Below, piece by piece: positions 1,762 to 7,496 of a stretch of 64,000 nt of DNA. Under the pieces are notes generated by a model. That model had not been told where the DNA came from. It was given only the letters and a program-made list of their open reading frames with translations, and made no database searches. Where the stretch lies: NCBI GenBank assembly GCA_014378765.1, contig JACMNA010000069.1, forward strand, positions 1-64,000, given 5' to 3'. The DNA comes from Bdellovibrio sp. (GTDB lineage: Bacteria > Bdellovibrionota > Bdellovibrionia > Bdellovibrionales > Bdellovibrionaceae). How positions within the stretch are numbered: the first letter of the stretch is position 1; every line of letters begins with the position of its first letter. The position numbers and the translations under genes are program-made.

Positions 1762-1834
1762 TTCTCCTACAACTGGCCCCACCCTTGCTACCTTATTACT
1801 GATTGCCTAAAACAGTGCAAAAAGGGACCAGTCC

Positions 1835-3157
1835 GTGAGTTTAAAAAGGTTTGAAGACATTATCGCCTATAAGTCAGATCAAGGGATTACCGCGTTCCAC
1901 GCGCGTAATTTAGAGGTCGCTGACGTAAGTGAAGAGATCTATAGCCAAATGACTTCCGTCGAACTGAAATCCGCAACTGTGCCTTCTTTCAATGCTTTAG
2001 CTGGTTTAGATGAGTCGGAGTCATTTCGCGCCCTCAAAGCGTGGAGCGATGAGCAAAACCCCGCCGTTTTATCTGGGCATGTTAAATTTGGAATAAAGAG
2101 TTTAACCCTTAATGTGACCCAAATTTGTAACCTAAAATGTAATTATTGCGCCGCGGGTGGTGATGGCACTTACGGCGAAGCGATTAACAAAGTTTCAGTC
2201 GAGAAAACTTTACCACAACTTAAATTTTTTCTAGAAAGCCTTAAAGACGGAAGCGTCTTTAATTTATCTTTCGTTGGCGGTGAACCTTTTCTTTATCCGC
2301 AAGCGATGAAAGTTATTTACGATTACGTCTTAGCCCAAACTGCCGGGCGAAAAATTGAGTGTCGGTTTATGGTAACCACGAATGGAACTTTAATTACCGA
2401 TGCCGTCGTTGAGATGTTAAAAACGATGCGCATCTACGTCACCGTTAGTCTTGATGGAACAAAAGAAATAAACGATATTGTGCGCCCAAGTAAAAGCGGC
2501 CGCAGCTCGACGGATGCGACACTTAAAGGTTTAAAAAAGTTAGTCGCGATTCGACCGTATTTAGAATCTATCGGTATTGCGGCGGTGGTCACAAAACAAA
2601 ATTCAGAAATCAAACAGAATTATTTATTCTTTAAAACTCTTAACGTTGACTGGTGTGAATTCAATTACGCCTACGCCGAGCGTGACGTTGAAACGCAAAA
2701 TAAATACTTACAGCAAATGCAAGAGATCGCCGAAATCGCGTGGCAAAGCGGTGGCGAAGAAGAGCTAAGAAAAATCAGAACCATAAATGCTTACTTTGAC
2801 GTATTAGACTCTCAACAGCGTATTGAAAATTTTTGCGGCGCCGGAAAAAGTTATCTAATGATCGACGCAAAGAATCGCCTTTACACGTGCCCATGGCTGG
2901 TCGGTGAAAAAGATGAGATCGTCGGCGAGAATTCGGTGATCGATTATGACAAATTAGATAAATACCAGAAACCTTTAATAGAATTAAATAACTGTAACAA
3001 CTGCTGGGCGCGGTTTGTGTGCGGCGGAGGATGTATGTACGTGCACCGCGAGCATACAGGCGATAAGCATTTAAAAGACGAATTATTTTGTGAACGAACT
3101 CGGGGCTTGATTCTTTTAAGTATTCTGTACTATAAAAGAGCCAGAGCCGCCGCTTAA
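1835..3157 (+). CDS. Radical SAM/SPASM peptide maturase
   Basis: A 440-aa enzyme. Cys98-x3-Cys102-x2-Cys105 binds the SAM-cleaving [4Fe-4S] cluster and 'GGEP' (148-151) is the SAM-contact motif. A full SPASM domain follows: Cys334 and Cys352, then Cys387-x2-Cys390-x5-Cys396-x3-Cys400, then Cys419, the spacing that holds two auxiliary clusters in anSME- and ScfB-type enzymes. The first ~85 residues precede the barrel and resemble the N-terminal extensions that recognise leader peptides in other maturases (inference). Known members post-translationally crosslink or oxidise peptides or proteins. The GTG start at 1835 is preceded by AAAGGGA (1821-1827). A 46-aa peptide gene lies 23 nt downstream, the obvious candidate substrate, followed by a kinase/regulator pair. 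The family is certain; the chemistry and substrate are not. Confidence 0.9.
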   Translation: MSLKRFEDIIAYKSDQGITAFHARNLEVADVSEEIYSQMTSVELKSATVPSFNALAGLDESESFRALKAWSDEQNPAVLSGHVKFGIKSLTLNVTQICNLKCNYCAAGGDGTYGEAINKVSVEKTLPQLKFFLESLKDGSVFNLSFVGGEPFLYPQAMKVIYDYVLAQTAGRKIECRFMVTTNGTLITDAVVEMLKTMRIYVTVSLDGTKEINDIVRPSKSGRSSTDATLKGLKKLVAIRPYLESIGIAAVVTKQNSEIKQNYLFFKTLNVDWCEFNYAYAERDVETQNKYLQQMQEIAEIAWQSGGEEELRKIRTINAYFDVLDSQQRIENFCGAGKSYLMIDAKNRLYTCPWLVGEKDEIVGENSVIDYDKLDKYQKPLIELNNCNNCWARFVCGGGCMYVHREHTGDKHLKDELFCERTRGLILLSILYYKRARAAA

Positions 3158-3180: not shown

Positions 3181-3321
3181 ATGAAAACAACGACCGTAAA
3201 AAAAGAAGCAACTACCAAGGCTTCTAATCACATTAAAAAGGTAAAGCCTTCTAAGCGCTTACCAACTCGCACGACTGGTATTTCTTGCCCACCCACTGGT
3301 GGACCTGATTCAGCCGGCTAG
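3181..3321 (+). CDS. Putative RiPP-like precursor peptide, 46 aa
   Basis: A short frame starting at ATG 3181 with AGGA (3173-3176) as ribosome-binding site and ending at TAG 3319-3321. The first ~32 residues are Lys/Thr-rich, basic and leader-like. The last ~14 residues switch to a neutral Gly/Pro/Ser segment with a single Cys36: 'GISCPPTGGPDSAG'. Size, leader/core polarity and position 23 nt after a radical SAM/SPASM gene match precursor peptides of ribosomally made, modified peptides. The Cys could be a thioether donor in the SactiPeptide/ranthipeptide manner. It contains no signal peptide or membrane segment. I do not recognise a named precursor family, and the call rests on context and composition. 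Confidence 0.65.
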   Translation: MKTTTVKKEATTKASNHIKKVKPSKRLPTRTTGISCPPTGGPDSAG

Positions 3322-3331
3322 TTTTTAGAAT

Positions 3332-5272
3332 ATGAACAATACGAATTCATCGGCTCGCCCGACGGCGAGCAAAGATGGCAAGCCTCGCCCACCGGCGAGC
3401 AAAGATGATCTAAATGCTTCAGCTCACTTTAGCTTAAGACAAGTCATTACTCGGATTATATTTGCGCTCATTGCGTCTGCGATGATTTCTACTTTGAAAT
3501 TAGACTACATTGAAAGTTACTTGTATGACGTGCGGGTAACACTTAAGGCGATGTTGGGCCTATCGAACCCAACAAATACCCCTATCGTCATGGTTAAAAT
3601 CAGTAACGCCACCGTCGACCAATTTAAAGGATTTCCGGGCTTCCAGCAGCATACTAATTTTTTAAATCAATTAAAAAAAGGCTCACCCCACTTTGTTATT
3701 TACGAATTTCGAAATAAAGATGGAAAAATCGAAGATATCGACGGAACCGAGGCCGAAAGATTAGCCTTCGCAAAAACCGCTGAACAGATTAAAGAATTTT
3801 ACGTACCCACCGATAAAACGGAACTTAAAGCCGAGGCCGGCAAATTGAAATTTGACGAGCCCTTAGAAAATATTAAAATCTTTTCGGGGCCTAAAGCGCC
3901 GGATATGTATTTGTTTGCAAAAGACAGTGTCTACCGCCGCATGTTGATTAATTACCAAGATCAAATTCTACTTCATGCAAATGTCGCGGGCTTCTACAAC
4001 CCCGAAATCGCAGCCTTAAAAAACATTCGTGGCCGTTTTGAATTTTTAGATTCAAGCCAAGTTTATATTCATTATTACAAGCAAGGTTCGTTTCCAACCT
4101 TCAACTTTGAAGACGTTTTAGAAGGAAAAGTCGACCCGGCTGTTTTTAAAGATCGTCTTGTCATCGTTGGCACTGATACCGGAAAATCAGTTCGTGAATA
4201 TGTGCAGACTCCTTATTCGCGCGAGATTACTAGTATGGCTTCGATGGAATTGCACGCCAATATGTTTCAAACTTTAATTGATAACTCGGCCCCTCTCCGC
4301 CTTCCTCCGTGGGTCAATATTCTTTTAACTAGTTTGATTTCAGTTTTAACCGTGCACGTCGTGTTAACGCTGAAGCCTTCGCGCGGATTACTTTTATTAA
4401 TGGCGACTTTACTAGGATTAGCGTTAGTCGCCATTATACTTTACGCTTTATTTACAATTTGGATTGATTTAGCGCACCCGTTCTTGGCTATTTTCTTATG
4501 TTATTATTTCTTTATTCCGTACCGGCTTATTATCGAAAATCGTAAAAGCTGGGAGTACTTTCAAAAAAATAAACTACTTAAGCAAGTTGAAGAGCTTAAA
4601 ACTAATTTTATCTCAATGATGTCTCACGATTTAAAAACGCCCATTGCGCGCATTCAGGGCATGACTGAAATGATTTTAAAAGATGAAGTGGCGCTGAGCT
4701 CACTTCAACGCGAAGCCGTCGATACAATCCGCAGCAGTTCAGACGACCTTTTAAAATTTATAAATTCTATTTTACAATACGGCCGCATTGAAAGCCAGGG
4801 CGTAGAGTTGCATCGCCAATCTAAAGACATCAACCAAATTATTATAGACGTAATTAAAAAACATGAATTTTTAGCGAAGGTAAAAAAAATTAAAATCGTA
4901 AAGGAACTTGAAACTTTATTTCCGGTATCAGTAGACCCTGACTTGATTCGCCAGGCTTTTTCGAACTTGATTGAAAATGCCATTAAGTACAGTGGGGAAG
5001 AATCGACCGTCATTGTGCGTACGCGTGAAGAGCAAAATAAAGTTTTAATCGATGTGATTGACCAGGGGATCGGAATTCCGGCCGTAGACCTACCTAATAT
5101 CTTCATGAAATTTTTTCGTAGTCATAACGTCAAAACTTCAACCATCAAGGGCACGGGGCTTGGGCTGTATTTAGCTCAGTATTTTGTACATCTTCATCGC
5201 GGCGAAATCACCGTAATCAGCAATTCAGATCAGGGATCTCATTTTACGGTGCATTTGCCTATTAATCAGTAG
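3332..5272 (+). CDS. CHASE2-domain sensor histidine kinase
   Basis: A 646-aa membrane kinase. A short polar N-terminus carries a 10-residue tandem duplication (about residues 8-27), then comes a first membrane helix (about 40-56). A large extracytoplasmic region (about 60-320) has the CHASE2 pattern ('DVRVTLK' at its start; 'FKDRLVIVGTD' near its end), followed by three membrane helices (about 327-395). The cytoplasmic part has an HisKA domain with phosphoacceptor His432 in 'SHDLKTP', then an HATPase_c domain with an N box ('NLIENAIKYS'), 'DQGIGIP' and 'GTGLGL'. All catalytic motifs are intact. It starts 10 nt after the peptide gene with a weak ribosome-binding site, suggesting translational coupling, and is followed by its likely partner, the sigma-54 regulator at 5352. 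The ligand is unknown; the modified peptide is an attractive but unproven candidate. Confidence 0.88.
   Translation: MNNTNSSARPTASKDGKPRPPASKDDLNASAHFSLRQVITRIIFALIASAMISTLKLDYIESYLYDVRVTLKAMLGLSNPTNTPIVMVKISNATVDQFKGFPGFQQHTNFLNQLKKGSPHFVIYEFRNKDGKIEDIDGTEAERLAFAKTAEQIKEFYVPTDKTELKAEAGKLKFDEPLENIKIFSGPKAPDMYLFAKDSVYRRMLINYQDQILLHANVAGFYNPEIAALKNIRGRFEFLDSSQVYIHYYKQGSFPTFNFEDVLEGKVDPAVFKDRLVIVGTDTGKSVREYVQTPYSREITSMASMELHANMFQTLIDNSAPLRLPPWVNILLTSLISVLTVHVVLTLKPSRGLLLLMATLLGLALVAIILYALFTIWIDLAHPFLAIFLCYYFFIPYRLIIENRKSWEYFQKNKLLKQVEELKTNFISMMSHDLKTPIARIQGMTEMILKDEVALSSLQREAVDTIRSSSDDLLKFINSILQYGRIESQGVELHRQSKDINQIIIDVIKKHEFLAKVKKIKIVKELETLFPVSVDPDLIRQAFSNLIENAIKYSGEESTVIVRTREEQNKVLIDVIDQGIGIPAVDLPNIFMKFFRSHNVKTSTIKGTGLGLYLAQYFVHLHRGEITVISNSDQGSHFTVHLPINQ
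3353..3407 (+). repeat. Tandem GC-rich hairpin repeats inside the start of the CHASE2 kinase gene
   Basis: Two 24-bp copies (3354-3377 and 3384-3407, 30-bp period) differ at only two bases. Each folds into a compact hairpin: GCTCGCC-CGAC-GGCGAGC at 3353-3370 and CTCGCC-CACC-GGCGAG at 3384-3399. They lie in codons 8-26 of the kinase and encode an imperfect ten-residue duplication, and they are much richer in GC than the surrounding gene. They could damp translation of the kinase relative to the peptide, or be remnants of a small mobile repeat. Confidence 0.6.
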
Positions 5273-5351: not shown

Positions 5352-6908
5352 ATGTTAAAAGTTTTAGTTGTTGATGACGACCAAGCATTAAGGCTTTCGG
5401 TTCGCTCAGCGCTTGAAAGCACTAAAAAATTTAGCGTTGAAGAAGCATTTGACGGTATTAACGCCCTCGAAAAAGTAAAGGCCGCGCCGGTCAACACGCG
5501 CGCTTACGATATCGTAATCTTAGATGTTGATATGCCCCGCCTGAATGGTTTGGGCGCCCTGAAAGCAATCAAAGAACATGATCCAGGAATTATCGTACTG
5601 ATATTAACCGCGCACGCCACCGTTGAAGCGGCCGTACAATCAGTACGTGATGGTGCTTATAACTTTTTATCTAAGCCCATTTCAAGCGATGAGTTGATTG
5701 CCTTAATCGATAAAGCTATTACGGCGCATACGTTAATTTCGACTTTAGCAGTTTCGTCTCCGGTGTTTGTGGATGAAGGCCGTAAAATCATCGGTAACAC
5801 TTCACAGATGCAAAAAGTATTTAACGTTATTCATAAGCTAGCAAAAGTGGAAACGCCGGTTCTCATTCGCGGTGCTTCCGGTACGGGTAAAGAGTTAGTT
5901 GCTAAAGCCATTCATTTTAACTCGGCCCGAAAAGATGAAAAGTTTGTGGCGATTAACTGTTCGGCAATTCCAGAAAATTTATTTGAATCTGAATTATTCG
6001 GCCACGAAAAAGGATCTTTCACGGGCGCCAGCGAACGTAAAATCGGAAAATTTCAATACGCCGAGGGCGGCACCCTGTTTTTAGATGAAGTGGGCGACAT
6101 GCCACAACTGATGCAGGTGAAATTACTGCGCGTACTGCAAGAAAAATTATTTATGCCGGTGGGATCGAACCGTGAGATTTGCACGAATGTTCGCATTATT
6201 GCAGCGACGAACCGTCCGTTAGAAGAAATGATGAGAGACGGGCGTTTCCGTGAAGATTTATTTTATCGTTTGAACGTTGTGCCGATTTATTTACCGCAAT
6301 TGAATGAACGTAAAGATGACTTAGAAGTTTTGATTCACATTTTTATGCGAAAGTTCAATCAGATTCATTGTAAACGCGTAACAACCGTTAGCAAAGATGC
6401 GATGTCAGTTTTAAAACGCTACAATTGGCCAGGAAACATTCGTGAATTAGAAAATGTGATTGAGCACGCATTCGTTTTAGAAAATTCAAATTCAATTACG
6501 CTTGGAAGCTTGCCTGAGGCTGTTCTTGAGGCCGTCGGAGTTAATTTAGTTGAATCGATGGAAGCGCTTCGGAGTCAATCTGAAACAATAAAAAAGTCTG
6601 CACAAGTTTTTAGCGAGGATGAAATGAGTGCAGATGAAGATTTAGCTATTGACTCAATTCTTTCGGATGATGATTCAGCAGAATCTGGTGACGAAGATAT
6701 TAGCATGGCGATTCCGAACAATGGGCCCTTAGACTTTAACGTGCAAAAAGAAGAATTTGAAAAACAGTTTATTATCAAGGCCTTGAAGACTTTCAAAGGT
6801 CGAATTAATCAGACTGCGATTCACGCCAATATTCCAAAAAAGACTTTGCTTCGTAAAATTGAAAAGTATGGAATCGTGGCGAAAGAATATGCAGAGCCAA
6901 AATTATAA
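5352..6908 (+). CDS. NtrC-type response regulator, sigma-54 activator
   Basis: A 518-aa regulator. A receiver domain occupies about residues 1-120 (acidic pocket 'VDDD' at 7-10, phosphoacceptor Asp58 in 'ILDVDMP', Lys in 'LSKPIS'). An AAA+ domain spans about 145-385 with Walker A 'GASGTGKE', Walker B 'LFLDEVGD' and the sigma-54 contact loop in the variant form GSFTGA instead of GAFTGA. An acidic linker of about 50 residues is rich in Asp/Glu/Ser, and a Fis-type helix-turn-helix is at the C-terminus ('NIPKKTLLRKIEKYGI'). The ATG at 5352 is chosen because GGGGGA precedes it and the receiver begins there; an upstream in-frame ATG at 5298 would add residues unlike the family. It is the likely partner of the CHASE2 kinase, so this operon probably drives sigma-54 promoters. 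Confidence 0.9.
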   Translation: MLKVLVVDDDQALRLSVRSALESTKKFSVEEAFDGINALEKVKAAPVNTRAYDIVILDVDMPRLNGLGALKAIKEHDPGIIVLILTAHATVEAAVQSVRDGAYNFLSKPISSDELIALIDKAITAHTLISTLAVSSPVFVDEGRKIIGNTSQMQKVFNVIHKLAKVETPVLIRGASGTGKELVAKAIHFNSARKDEKFVAINCSAIPENLFESELFGHEKGSFTGASERKIGKFQYAEGGTLFLDEVGDMPQLMQVKLLRVLQEKLFMPVGSNREICTNVRIIAATNRPLEEMMRDGRFREDLFYRLNVVPIYLPQLNERKDDLEVLIHIFMRKFNQIHCKRVTTVSKDAMSVLKRYNWPGNIRELENVIEHAFVLENSNSITLGSLPEAVLEAVGVNLVESMEALRSQSETIKKSAQVFSEDEMSADEDLAIDSILSDDDSAESGDEDISMAIPNNGPLDFNVQKEEFEKQFIIKALKTFKGRINQTAIHANIPKKTLLRKIEKYGIVAKEYAEPKL

Positions 6909-6922
6909 TCGAACAAAATTTT

Positions 6923-6959
6923 AACATCATCGAACGAAAAATATTCGTTCGATGATGTT
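6923..6959. other. Perfect 16-bp inverted repeat after the regulator gene
   Basis: Left arm 6923-6938 pairs perfectly with right arm 6944-6959 around a 5-nt loop (AAATA). It starts 15 nt after the response-regulator stop. No run of T follows on either strand, so it is not a textbook intrinsic terminator. It may be an RNA stabiliser, a Rho-associated end or a protein-binding palindrome separating the signalling operon from the gene at 6999. Confidence 0.6.
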
Positions 6960-6998: not shown

Positions 6999-7496
6999 AT
7001 GGCAATGAATCCCCTTCCACCTCAAGCTTATACGAAAGAAACTTTGCAAAAAGCCTATGCTTGGCTTTTGACTCAAAGCCCTTCGATCAAGGATATGGCA
7101 TCAACTCAAGACATGTTGATTAGCCTTTACTTAAAGGCTCAACGTAATGGTGATGCGTCGTTAGAAGCGCCAAGTATTCAGAATTTTAAACAAGAGCTCA
7201 AATCCTTGGCGGGATTGATGGGTGATCTTCAACCCTCAGCTCACGGATACACCCCAAGTAAACCAGCTCCTCAACCTGCTAATGGTCATGCAAATGGTTC
7301 AGCCCCTACGACTGGGCCGGCAATGCCAGCCTTTGTTGCGGGTGATAGCTCGTCATCACTGATGGCTCAGTTAGATCCTAACTCGTTACAAGCGCTTACT
7401 GATGTTAAGAATACGCTTAATTTAAGCGGCGACGCCGAAGCGCTGCGCGCTTTAATTGCCCTAGGTTACAAACAATTCCAAAAAATATACTCTTAA
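6999..7496 (+). CDS. Hypothetical cytoplasmic protein with Pro/Gly/Ala-rich linker
   Basis: A 165-aa protein without signal peptide or membrane helix. Residues about 10-70 are helical ('AYAWLLTQSPSIKDMASTQDML' region). A flexible Pro/Ala/Gly/Asn-rich linker spans about 80-120, and residues 125-165 form a second helical block ('LQALTDVKNTLNLS'). The two-module layout suggests a protein-interaction adaptor, but I know no family. The start is uncertain: ATG 6999 and ATG 7005 both lack a good ribosome-binding site. It sits alone between the signalling operon and an intrinsic terminator upstream of ileS. Confidence 0.65.
   Translation: MAMNPLPPQAYTKETLQKAYAWLLTQSPSIKDMASTQDMLISLYLKAQRNGDASLEAPSIQNFKQELKSLAGLMGDLQPSAHGYTPSKPAPQPANGHANGSAPTTGPAMPAFVAGDSSSSLMAQLDPNSLQALTDVKNTLNLSGDAEALRALIALGYKQFQKIYS

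Follow-up and report, generated by a model that had tools for sequence, protein, structure and literature searches.

Does the 46-residue open reading frame at 3181-3321 of this DNA encode the precursor of a modified peptide and, if so, what would modify it and to what end? The window (the whole stretch analysed, 64,000 nucleotides of a Bdellovibrio sp. contig) had been described in a first-pass annotation, which read at this position a short ORF rich in Lys and Thr at its N-terminus, its single Cys standing before Pro-Pro, and that reading is confirmed. The predicted precursor peptide, MKTTTVKKEATTKASNHIKKVKPSKRLPTRTTGISCPPTGGPDSAG, runs from ATG 3181 to TAG 3321 on the + strand and is preceded by a Shine-Dalgarno-like AGGAAC. 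It contains the conserved leader block NHIKKVKP (3226-3249, + strand), a probable docking strand for the RRE of the neighbouring maturase, and the core peptide GISCPPTGGPDSAG (3277-3318, + strand), which carries a C-x-P motif with the single Cys encoded at 3286-3288.

Upstream of the ORF lies the gene for a 440-aa radical SAM/SPASM peptide maturase with an N-terminal RRE-like domain (1835-3157; Pfam Radical_SAM, 3e-16). Downstream are a 646-aa CHASE2 sensor histidine kinase (3332-5272; Pfam CHASE2 2e-26, HisKA 4e-18, HATPase_c 1e-26) and an NtrC-type response regulator with receiver, sigma-54 AAA+ and Fis-type HTH domains (5352-6908, likely starting at ATG 5352; Response_reg 1e-26, Sigma54_activat 8e-72, HTH_8 5e-6). 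All four genes are on the + strand, and the successive gaps between maturase, precursor, kinase and regulator are 23, 10 and 79 nt.

A single-Cys precursor family

The first-pass annotation had taken the ORF for a precursor-type peptide beside a SPASM enzyme, a reading to be given up if no homologues lay next to SPASM genes. Homologues do lie there: in 79 loci a short precursor gene adjoins the orthologous SPASM maturase gene. These loci hold 80 precursors, 78 of them distinct, and a small ORF is present in each locus whose contig spans the gap. The 78 distinct sequences are 27-78 aa long, and the precursor matches no Pfam or NCBIfam model, in agreement with the earlier impression that it resembles no familiar core. 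The single Cys, which had seemed unusual, is the norm for the family (75/78). In every one of the 78 precursors its distance from the C-terminus is 3-12 residues, and in 46 a Gly precedes it.

What is conserved in these peptides is distributed the other way round from what had been expected, namely an invariant SCPPTGG behind a variable leader. Few parts are as well conserved as the leader block (H)IKKxKP: 46/78 precursors have HIKK, and 74 have a block of the related form (H/S/N/F/Y)-I-x-K. The tail is variable, keeping only the Cys and, as a rule, a Pro at +2. A family defined by an invariant SCPPTGG is ruled out by this variable tail. C-terminal motifs are C-x-P in 71 of the 78, C-P-E in 6 and C-E-I in 1, and the precursor of B. 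bacteriovorus is MTQQTHIKKIKPLKPKPSSTTKLAGPGGGTGEGCIPVR. The core motif varies by lineage: precursors at five loci of family f4 (L084, L087, L240, L244 and L245) end in C-P-E rather than C-x-P, and that of L241 has C-E-I-V-Y-T at its tail. At one further locus (L032, G010:C37) two tandem precursors follow the maturase at offsets +16 and +134; they share the leader block and both have CIP, and their tails differ, GLSCIPIG in one and GLACIPSGLPNSSSN in the other.

The closest relative of the window locus, L031, has a maturase 81% identical to that of the window and, in the same place, a 37-aa small ORF whose last 14 residues are identical to the window's. Over these last 14 codons there are 7 synonymous and 0 non-synonymous differences, a codon pattern by which the core is judged to be under purifying selection. 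A hold-out of 12 loci fetched later had the leader motif and the C-terminal Cys in 12/12 and the Pro in 11/12. In 6 of 7 genomes checked that carry the gene, the exact leader pattern is unique to the locus; the genome with tandem precursors (G010) has it once exactly and once with one mismatch, and the leader of L031, HIVKVKP, departs from the exact pattern.

A short ORF sitting between two genes could also have arisen by chance, or its translation could serve to regulate the kinase, as a leader that has nothing to do with the maturase. We give this reading almost no credence: the protein is under purifying selection by the above comparison, the hold-out prediction was right every time for leader and Cys, a tandem duplicate of the precursor exists, and a genome without the maturase (G019, below) has at this place only a Cys-less ORF with no leader block. 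The codon pattern and the hold-out contradict a chance ORF outright. Judged by its sequence, then, the 46-residue ORF is a real gene, and there is very little doubt that precursor and maturase form a pair.

The maturase and its likely chemistry

Ten Cys are invariant in 52 maturase orthologues: three form the radical SAM triad (98/102/105), and the other seven belong to the SPASM domain (C334, C352, C387, C390, C396, C400 and C419). The spacing C334-X17-C352 is as in CteB, and so is the seven-Cys SPASM domain with a three-ligand Aux I. Of the two auxiliary clusters in CteB, Aux I has an open site, and the leader of the CteB precursor extends the RRE beta-sheet (PMC6231123). The best PDB profile match of the window maturase was CteB 5wgg (E 1e-49, 172 bits), and anSME scored 3e-23 (86 bits). 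A Foldseek search with an AlphaFold2 model likewise gave CteB 5wgg as the best match (E 6e-25, TM 0.77/0.81 over 451 columns) and anSME as the second best; since the alignment extends over 451 columns, the fold match to CteB includes the N-terminal domain. A CteB-like active site is supported by this model.

The resemblance does not extend to membership in a named family. The best NCBIfam models for the window maturase were the nif11 (TIGR04064, 172 vs a cut-off of 518.7 bits), PapB (NF047865, 169.3 vs 340 bits) and SCIFF (TIGR03974, 141.5 vs 425 bits) maturases, all far below cut-off. The PapB and nif11 models match 49 and 48 of the 52 maturases, and no stronger call was obtained among the 52, so membership in the known radical SAM families was rejected. 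The enzyme would thus appear, from its sequence and its model, to work like a CteB/PapB-type thioether synthase outside those named families.

The CteB/CteA system (PDB 5wgg, 5why) shares with the Bdellovibrio system the RRE-radical SAM-SPASM architecture, an adjacent precursor gene and a leader beta-strand, here a modelled one. The two maturases are 18% identical in the structural alignment. CteA has six Cys in forty-five residues, whereas the Bdellovibrio-type precursors normally have one and are unrelated in sequence; unlike CteB, the maturase family occurs in Bdellovibrionales and belongs to a sigma-54 two-component operon. PapB joins Cys to an Asp or Glu of its substrate, whereas in the precursors here no acidic residue keeps a constant spacing to the Cys. 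In nif11 systems the precursor has a nif11 leader, and the Bdellovibrio-type precursor matches no such model.

How the leader may be held was approached through locus L109, where the precursor is in frame after the maturase and the maturase stop and a few codons lie between them. With Ser put in for this stop, the two form one natural chain, which was modelled with AlphaFold2 using 40 rows (mean pLDDT 88.5). The N-terminus of the chain folds as beta-beta-beta-beta-alpha-alpha, and IKKI of HIKKIKP forms a beta-strand (pLDDT about 70, a moderate confidence); the core is disordered. The model gives tentative support to docking of the leader block on the RRE-like domain of the maturase, and by analogy with CteB we infer which part of the RRE the leader strand would pair with. 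The N-terminal RRE of the maturase is accordingly predicted to hold the precursor through the (H)IKKxKP block.

The maturase would then alter the single C-terminal Cys, and we regard a covalent change at this residue as quite probable. The most likely product would be one thioether ring from the Cys to a near neighbour within the C-x-P core. This preference follows from the CteB-like cluster ligands of the maturase, and we lean towards it by a modest degree.

The main rival to the thioether arises from the core itself, which is C-x-P in most precursors and exactly C-x-P-x-R in 19/78 (for example GCIPVR; the window core has CPPTG instead). C-x-P-x-R is the sulfatase signature, the substrate motif of the anaerobic sulfatase-maturating enzymes, so the maturase might oxidise the Cys to Calpha-formylglycine in the manner of anSME, with a peptide aldehyde as the product. 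The second place of anSME in the structural matching speaks for such a reaction, and so does the lack of a conserved ring-acceptor residue: among the precursors only the Cys and the Pro at +2 are near-constant. The enzyme, however, lacks features of anSME. Aligned with anSMEcpe, which has two Cys (C255 and C261) and then Asp277 after Cys276, the maturase family has one Cys in place of the first two, the second Aux I Cys being missing and the C-X17-C spacing being that of CteB. Asp277 is the catalytic base of anSME, and the family has Pro, Val, Gln or Asn at its position. The CteB profile match is also far stronger, and position +4 of the core is Gly more often than Arg (29 vs 19 of 78 precursors). 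anSME (PDB 4k36-4k39) has the SPASM fold in common with this system, and its substrate motif, Cys-x-Pro(-x-Arg), resembles the core. It differs in lacking an RRE and in carrying Asp277 and eight SPASM Cys, where the family here has an RRE-like domain, seven Cys and no Asp. Going by the cluster ligands and the missing Asp, formylglycine formation is disfavoured, and we consider it improbable.

The sigma-54 operon and its inheritance

A sigma-54 (-24/-12) promoter, TGGCCCCACCCTTGCT, is predicted upstream of the maturase at 1774-1789 (+ strand), with 1 mismatch to TGGCAC-N5-TTGCW. Most of 64 loci have such a site, 30-80 nt ahead of the maturase start: with at most 1 mismatch it was found in 28/64 against 0.07 expected from shuffles, and with at most 2 mismatches in 42/64 against 0.54 expected. 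At the loci examined no terminator was found directly after the maturase, while 11 other loci, that of B. bacteriovorus included, have a T-tailed terminator behind the regulator. The terminators after the regulator, their absence after the maturase and the sigma-54 site before it define the operon as maturase-precursor-kinase-regulator, and that it is driven by sigma-54 is highly probable. Because the locus has both an NtrC-type activator and, in most cases, a -24/-12 promoter before the maturase, the regulator probably activates its own operon; a search upstream of the sigma-54 site showed no palindrome or regulator-binding site common to the loci. The first-pass annotation of the ORF had noted neither this operon, with its kinase and regulator, nor that the locus belongs to the core of the family.

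In the window a perfect 16-bp inverted repeat lies 3' of the regulator (6923-6959, no strand assigned) and is a possible operon terminator. The hairpin has no clear T-run on the + strand, and it could be a terminator or a regulator site. It is followed by a gene for a 165-aa protein, hyp165 (6999-7496), with no Pfam match above cut-off, which lies downstream of the kinase/regulator pair throughout the order, with or without the maturase.

A maturase search of 100 relatives gave 83 matches at E<=0.001, some of them weak matches to other radical SAM genes. Among 369 genomes of the phylum 81 matched at E<=1e-60, all in Bdellovibrionaceae, the sister family f10 and part of the sister family f4, and the maturase was found in no other family of this sample. 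Almost all Bdellovibrionaceae carry maturase, small ORF, kinase and regulator in that order, B. bacteriovorus included; named records with the locus include Bdellovibrio bacteriovorus strain kdesi and Bdellovibrio sp. qaytius, and genome G045 has the maturase at 3272168-3273451 with the precursor at 3273460-3273576. The gene order in the neighbourhood of 68 orthologues hardly changes, running maturase, small ORF, CHASE2 kinase, regulator, hyp165, (ileS), lspA, and across loci the regulator is 56-89% identical and in the same order. One contig titled as a Streptomyces griseus MAG (L125, CALQIT020000002.1) has a Bdellovibrionaceae maturase locus and is probably mislabelled.

Maturase distances correlate with those of the kinase (r=0.87) and the regulator (r=0.83), which is consistent with vertical co-inheritance and points to a vertically inherited core locus rather than a mobile gene cluster. 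Members of the order without the maturase still have the block kinase-regulator-hyp165-ileS, and in several of them a sigma-54 site directly precedes the kinase; the maturase-precursor module is therefore embedded in an older sigma-54/two-component circuit. The only high-quality Bdellovibrionaceae genome with an unbroken locus and no maturase, G019, keeps the kinase and a sigma-54 site and has between them only a Cys-less small ORF without a leader block. (Genome G230, whose contig ends inside the kinase, was left out of this judgement.) The Gly/Pro-rich ORF of G019, MKKMNQENQAPSFAQSWNGNGKPPFNLDPNGNGGGGTKPPFT (L216), stands at the precursor's place and is possibly a degenerate precursor.

This distribution bears on whether the peptide might be a diffusible secondary metabolite, antimicrobial or directed at competitors, that is co-regulated with the kinase yet not sensed by it. 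Antimicrobial activity is common among radical-SAM RiPPs, and the kinase pair is older than the peptide and occurs without it. Against this, the peptide comes from a single core-genome locus that is inherited vertically, genes for immunity, protease and transporter are absent from the conserved unit, and the position between promoter and kinase is fixed across families. We think a diffusible metabolite of this kind rather unlikely.

A proposed path from precursor to kinase

Taken as a whole, the explanation that we favour with moderate confidence is a single-Cys radical-SAM RiPP made from a sigma-54 operon, the mature peptide of which serves the kinase as signal or feedback. Its first step, a short peptide under selection that is co-encoded with a maturase, can be seen in the sequence. 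After docking and modification as proposed above, a general protease and an exporter would remove the leader and release the core; the conserved operon contains no protease or exporter gene. The CHASE2 kinase would then sense the mature peptide, with feedback on the sigma-54 operon and on other targets. Signal or feedback for this kinase seems the most likely role of the peptide, and that it acts through the kinase at all we put forward tentatively.

The CHASE2 kinase is the gene following the precursor in nearly all loci. An AlphaFold2 model of its sensor part (CHASE2 and membrane helices, window 3422-4546) has a pLDDT of 91 and found no PDB match below E 0.001, and lacking a solved relative it gives no hint of a ligand. 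In other families the kinase pair exists without the peptide, so the kinase does not depend on it in general.

The modified peptide might instead stay in the cell, as a protein-bound group or as a redox or metal ligand (for example through its Cys), and never be released as a signal. Signal peptide, protease and exporter are all unlinked, the precursors are very short, and QhpD-type relatives (related model TIGR03906) modify a protein subunit in place. The precursors nevertheless show the usual layout of a RiPP, with a leader block predicted to dock on an RRE and a variable Gly/Pro-rich spacer, and an intracellular role strikes us as distinctly improbable.

Parts of the proposed circuit have known counterparts. 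In NtrC-family systems with a CHASE2 kinase the kinase and sigma-54 activator domains and the upstream sigma-54 promoter are alike; unlike in those systems, a RiPP maturase and its precursor are here inserted between promoter and kinase. Streptococcal RaS-RiPPs (Rgg/SHP quorum sensing) are likewise radical-SAM peptides tied to signalling, but their RiPP genes are under the control of the SHP/Rgg circuit, whereas the Bdellovibrio RiPP lies within the operon of a membrane kinase and a sigma-54 activator. RiPP-type clusters are known to occur in the phylum from a genome survey (PMC8067016). In the open-access literature we found no description of this Bdellovibrio locus, nor of a RiPP maturase and precursor inside an NtrC/CHASE2 operon. 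Radical SAM RiPPs are a known kind of product; a single-Cys C-x-P precursor family in a core-genome sigma-54 two-component operon appears to be new.

For RiPP chemistry, the locus offers a maturase paired with precursors in which a single Cys is the norm and C-x-P is near-constant. A bolder and more doubtful extension is a core-genome RiPP circuit in which the peptide is the CHASE2 ligand or a quorum or feedback signal, the NtrC-type partner switches on, through sigma-54, its operon as well as a predation- or growth-phase regulon, and C-x-P may carry a modification new to RiPPs. If the signalling proposal is true, it would supply a candidate ligand for CHASE2, a domain for which no close solved structure was found. 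It has long been asked what makes B. bacteriovorus, the model bacterial predator, switch between attack, growth and exit. The locus, whose parts can all be knocked out in a laboratory strain, gives this predator a nearly family-wide, unannotated peptide together with a modifying enzyme, linked to a kinase.
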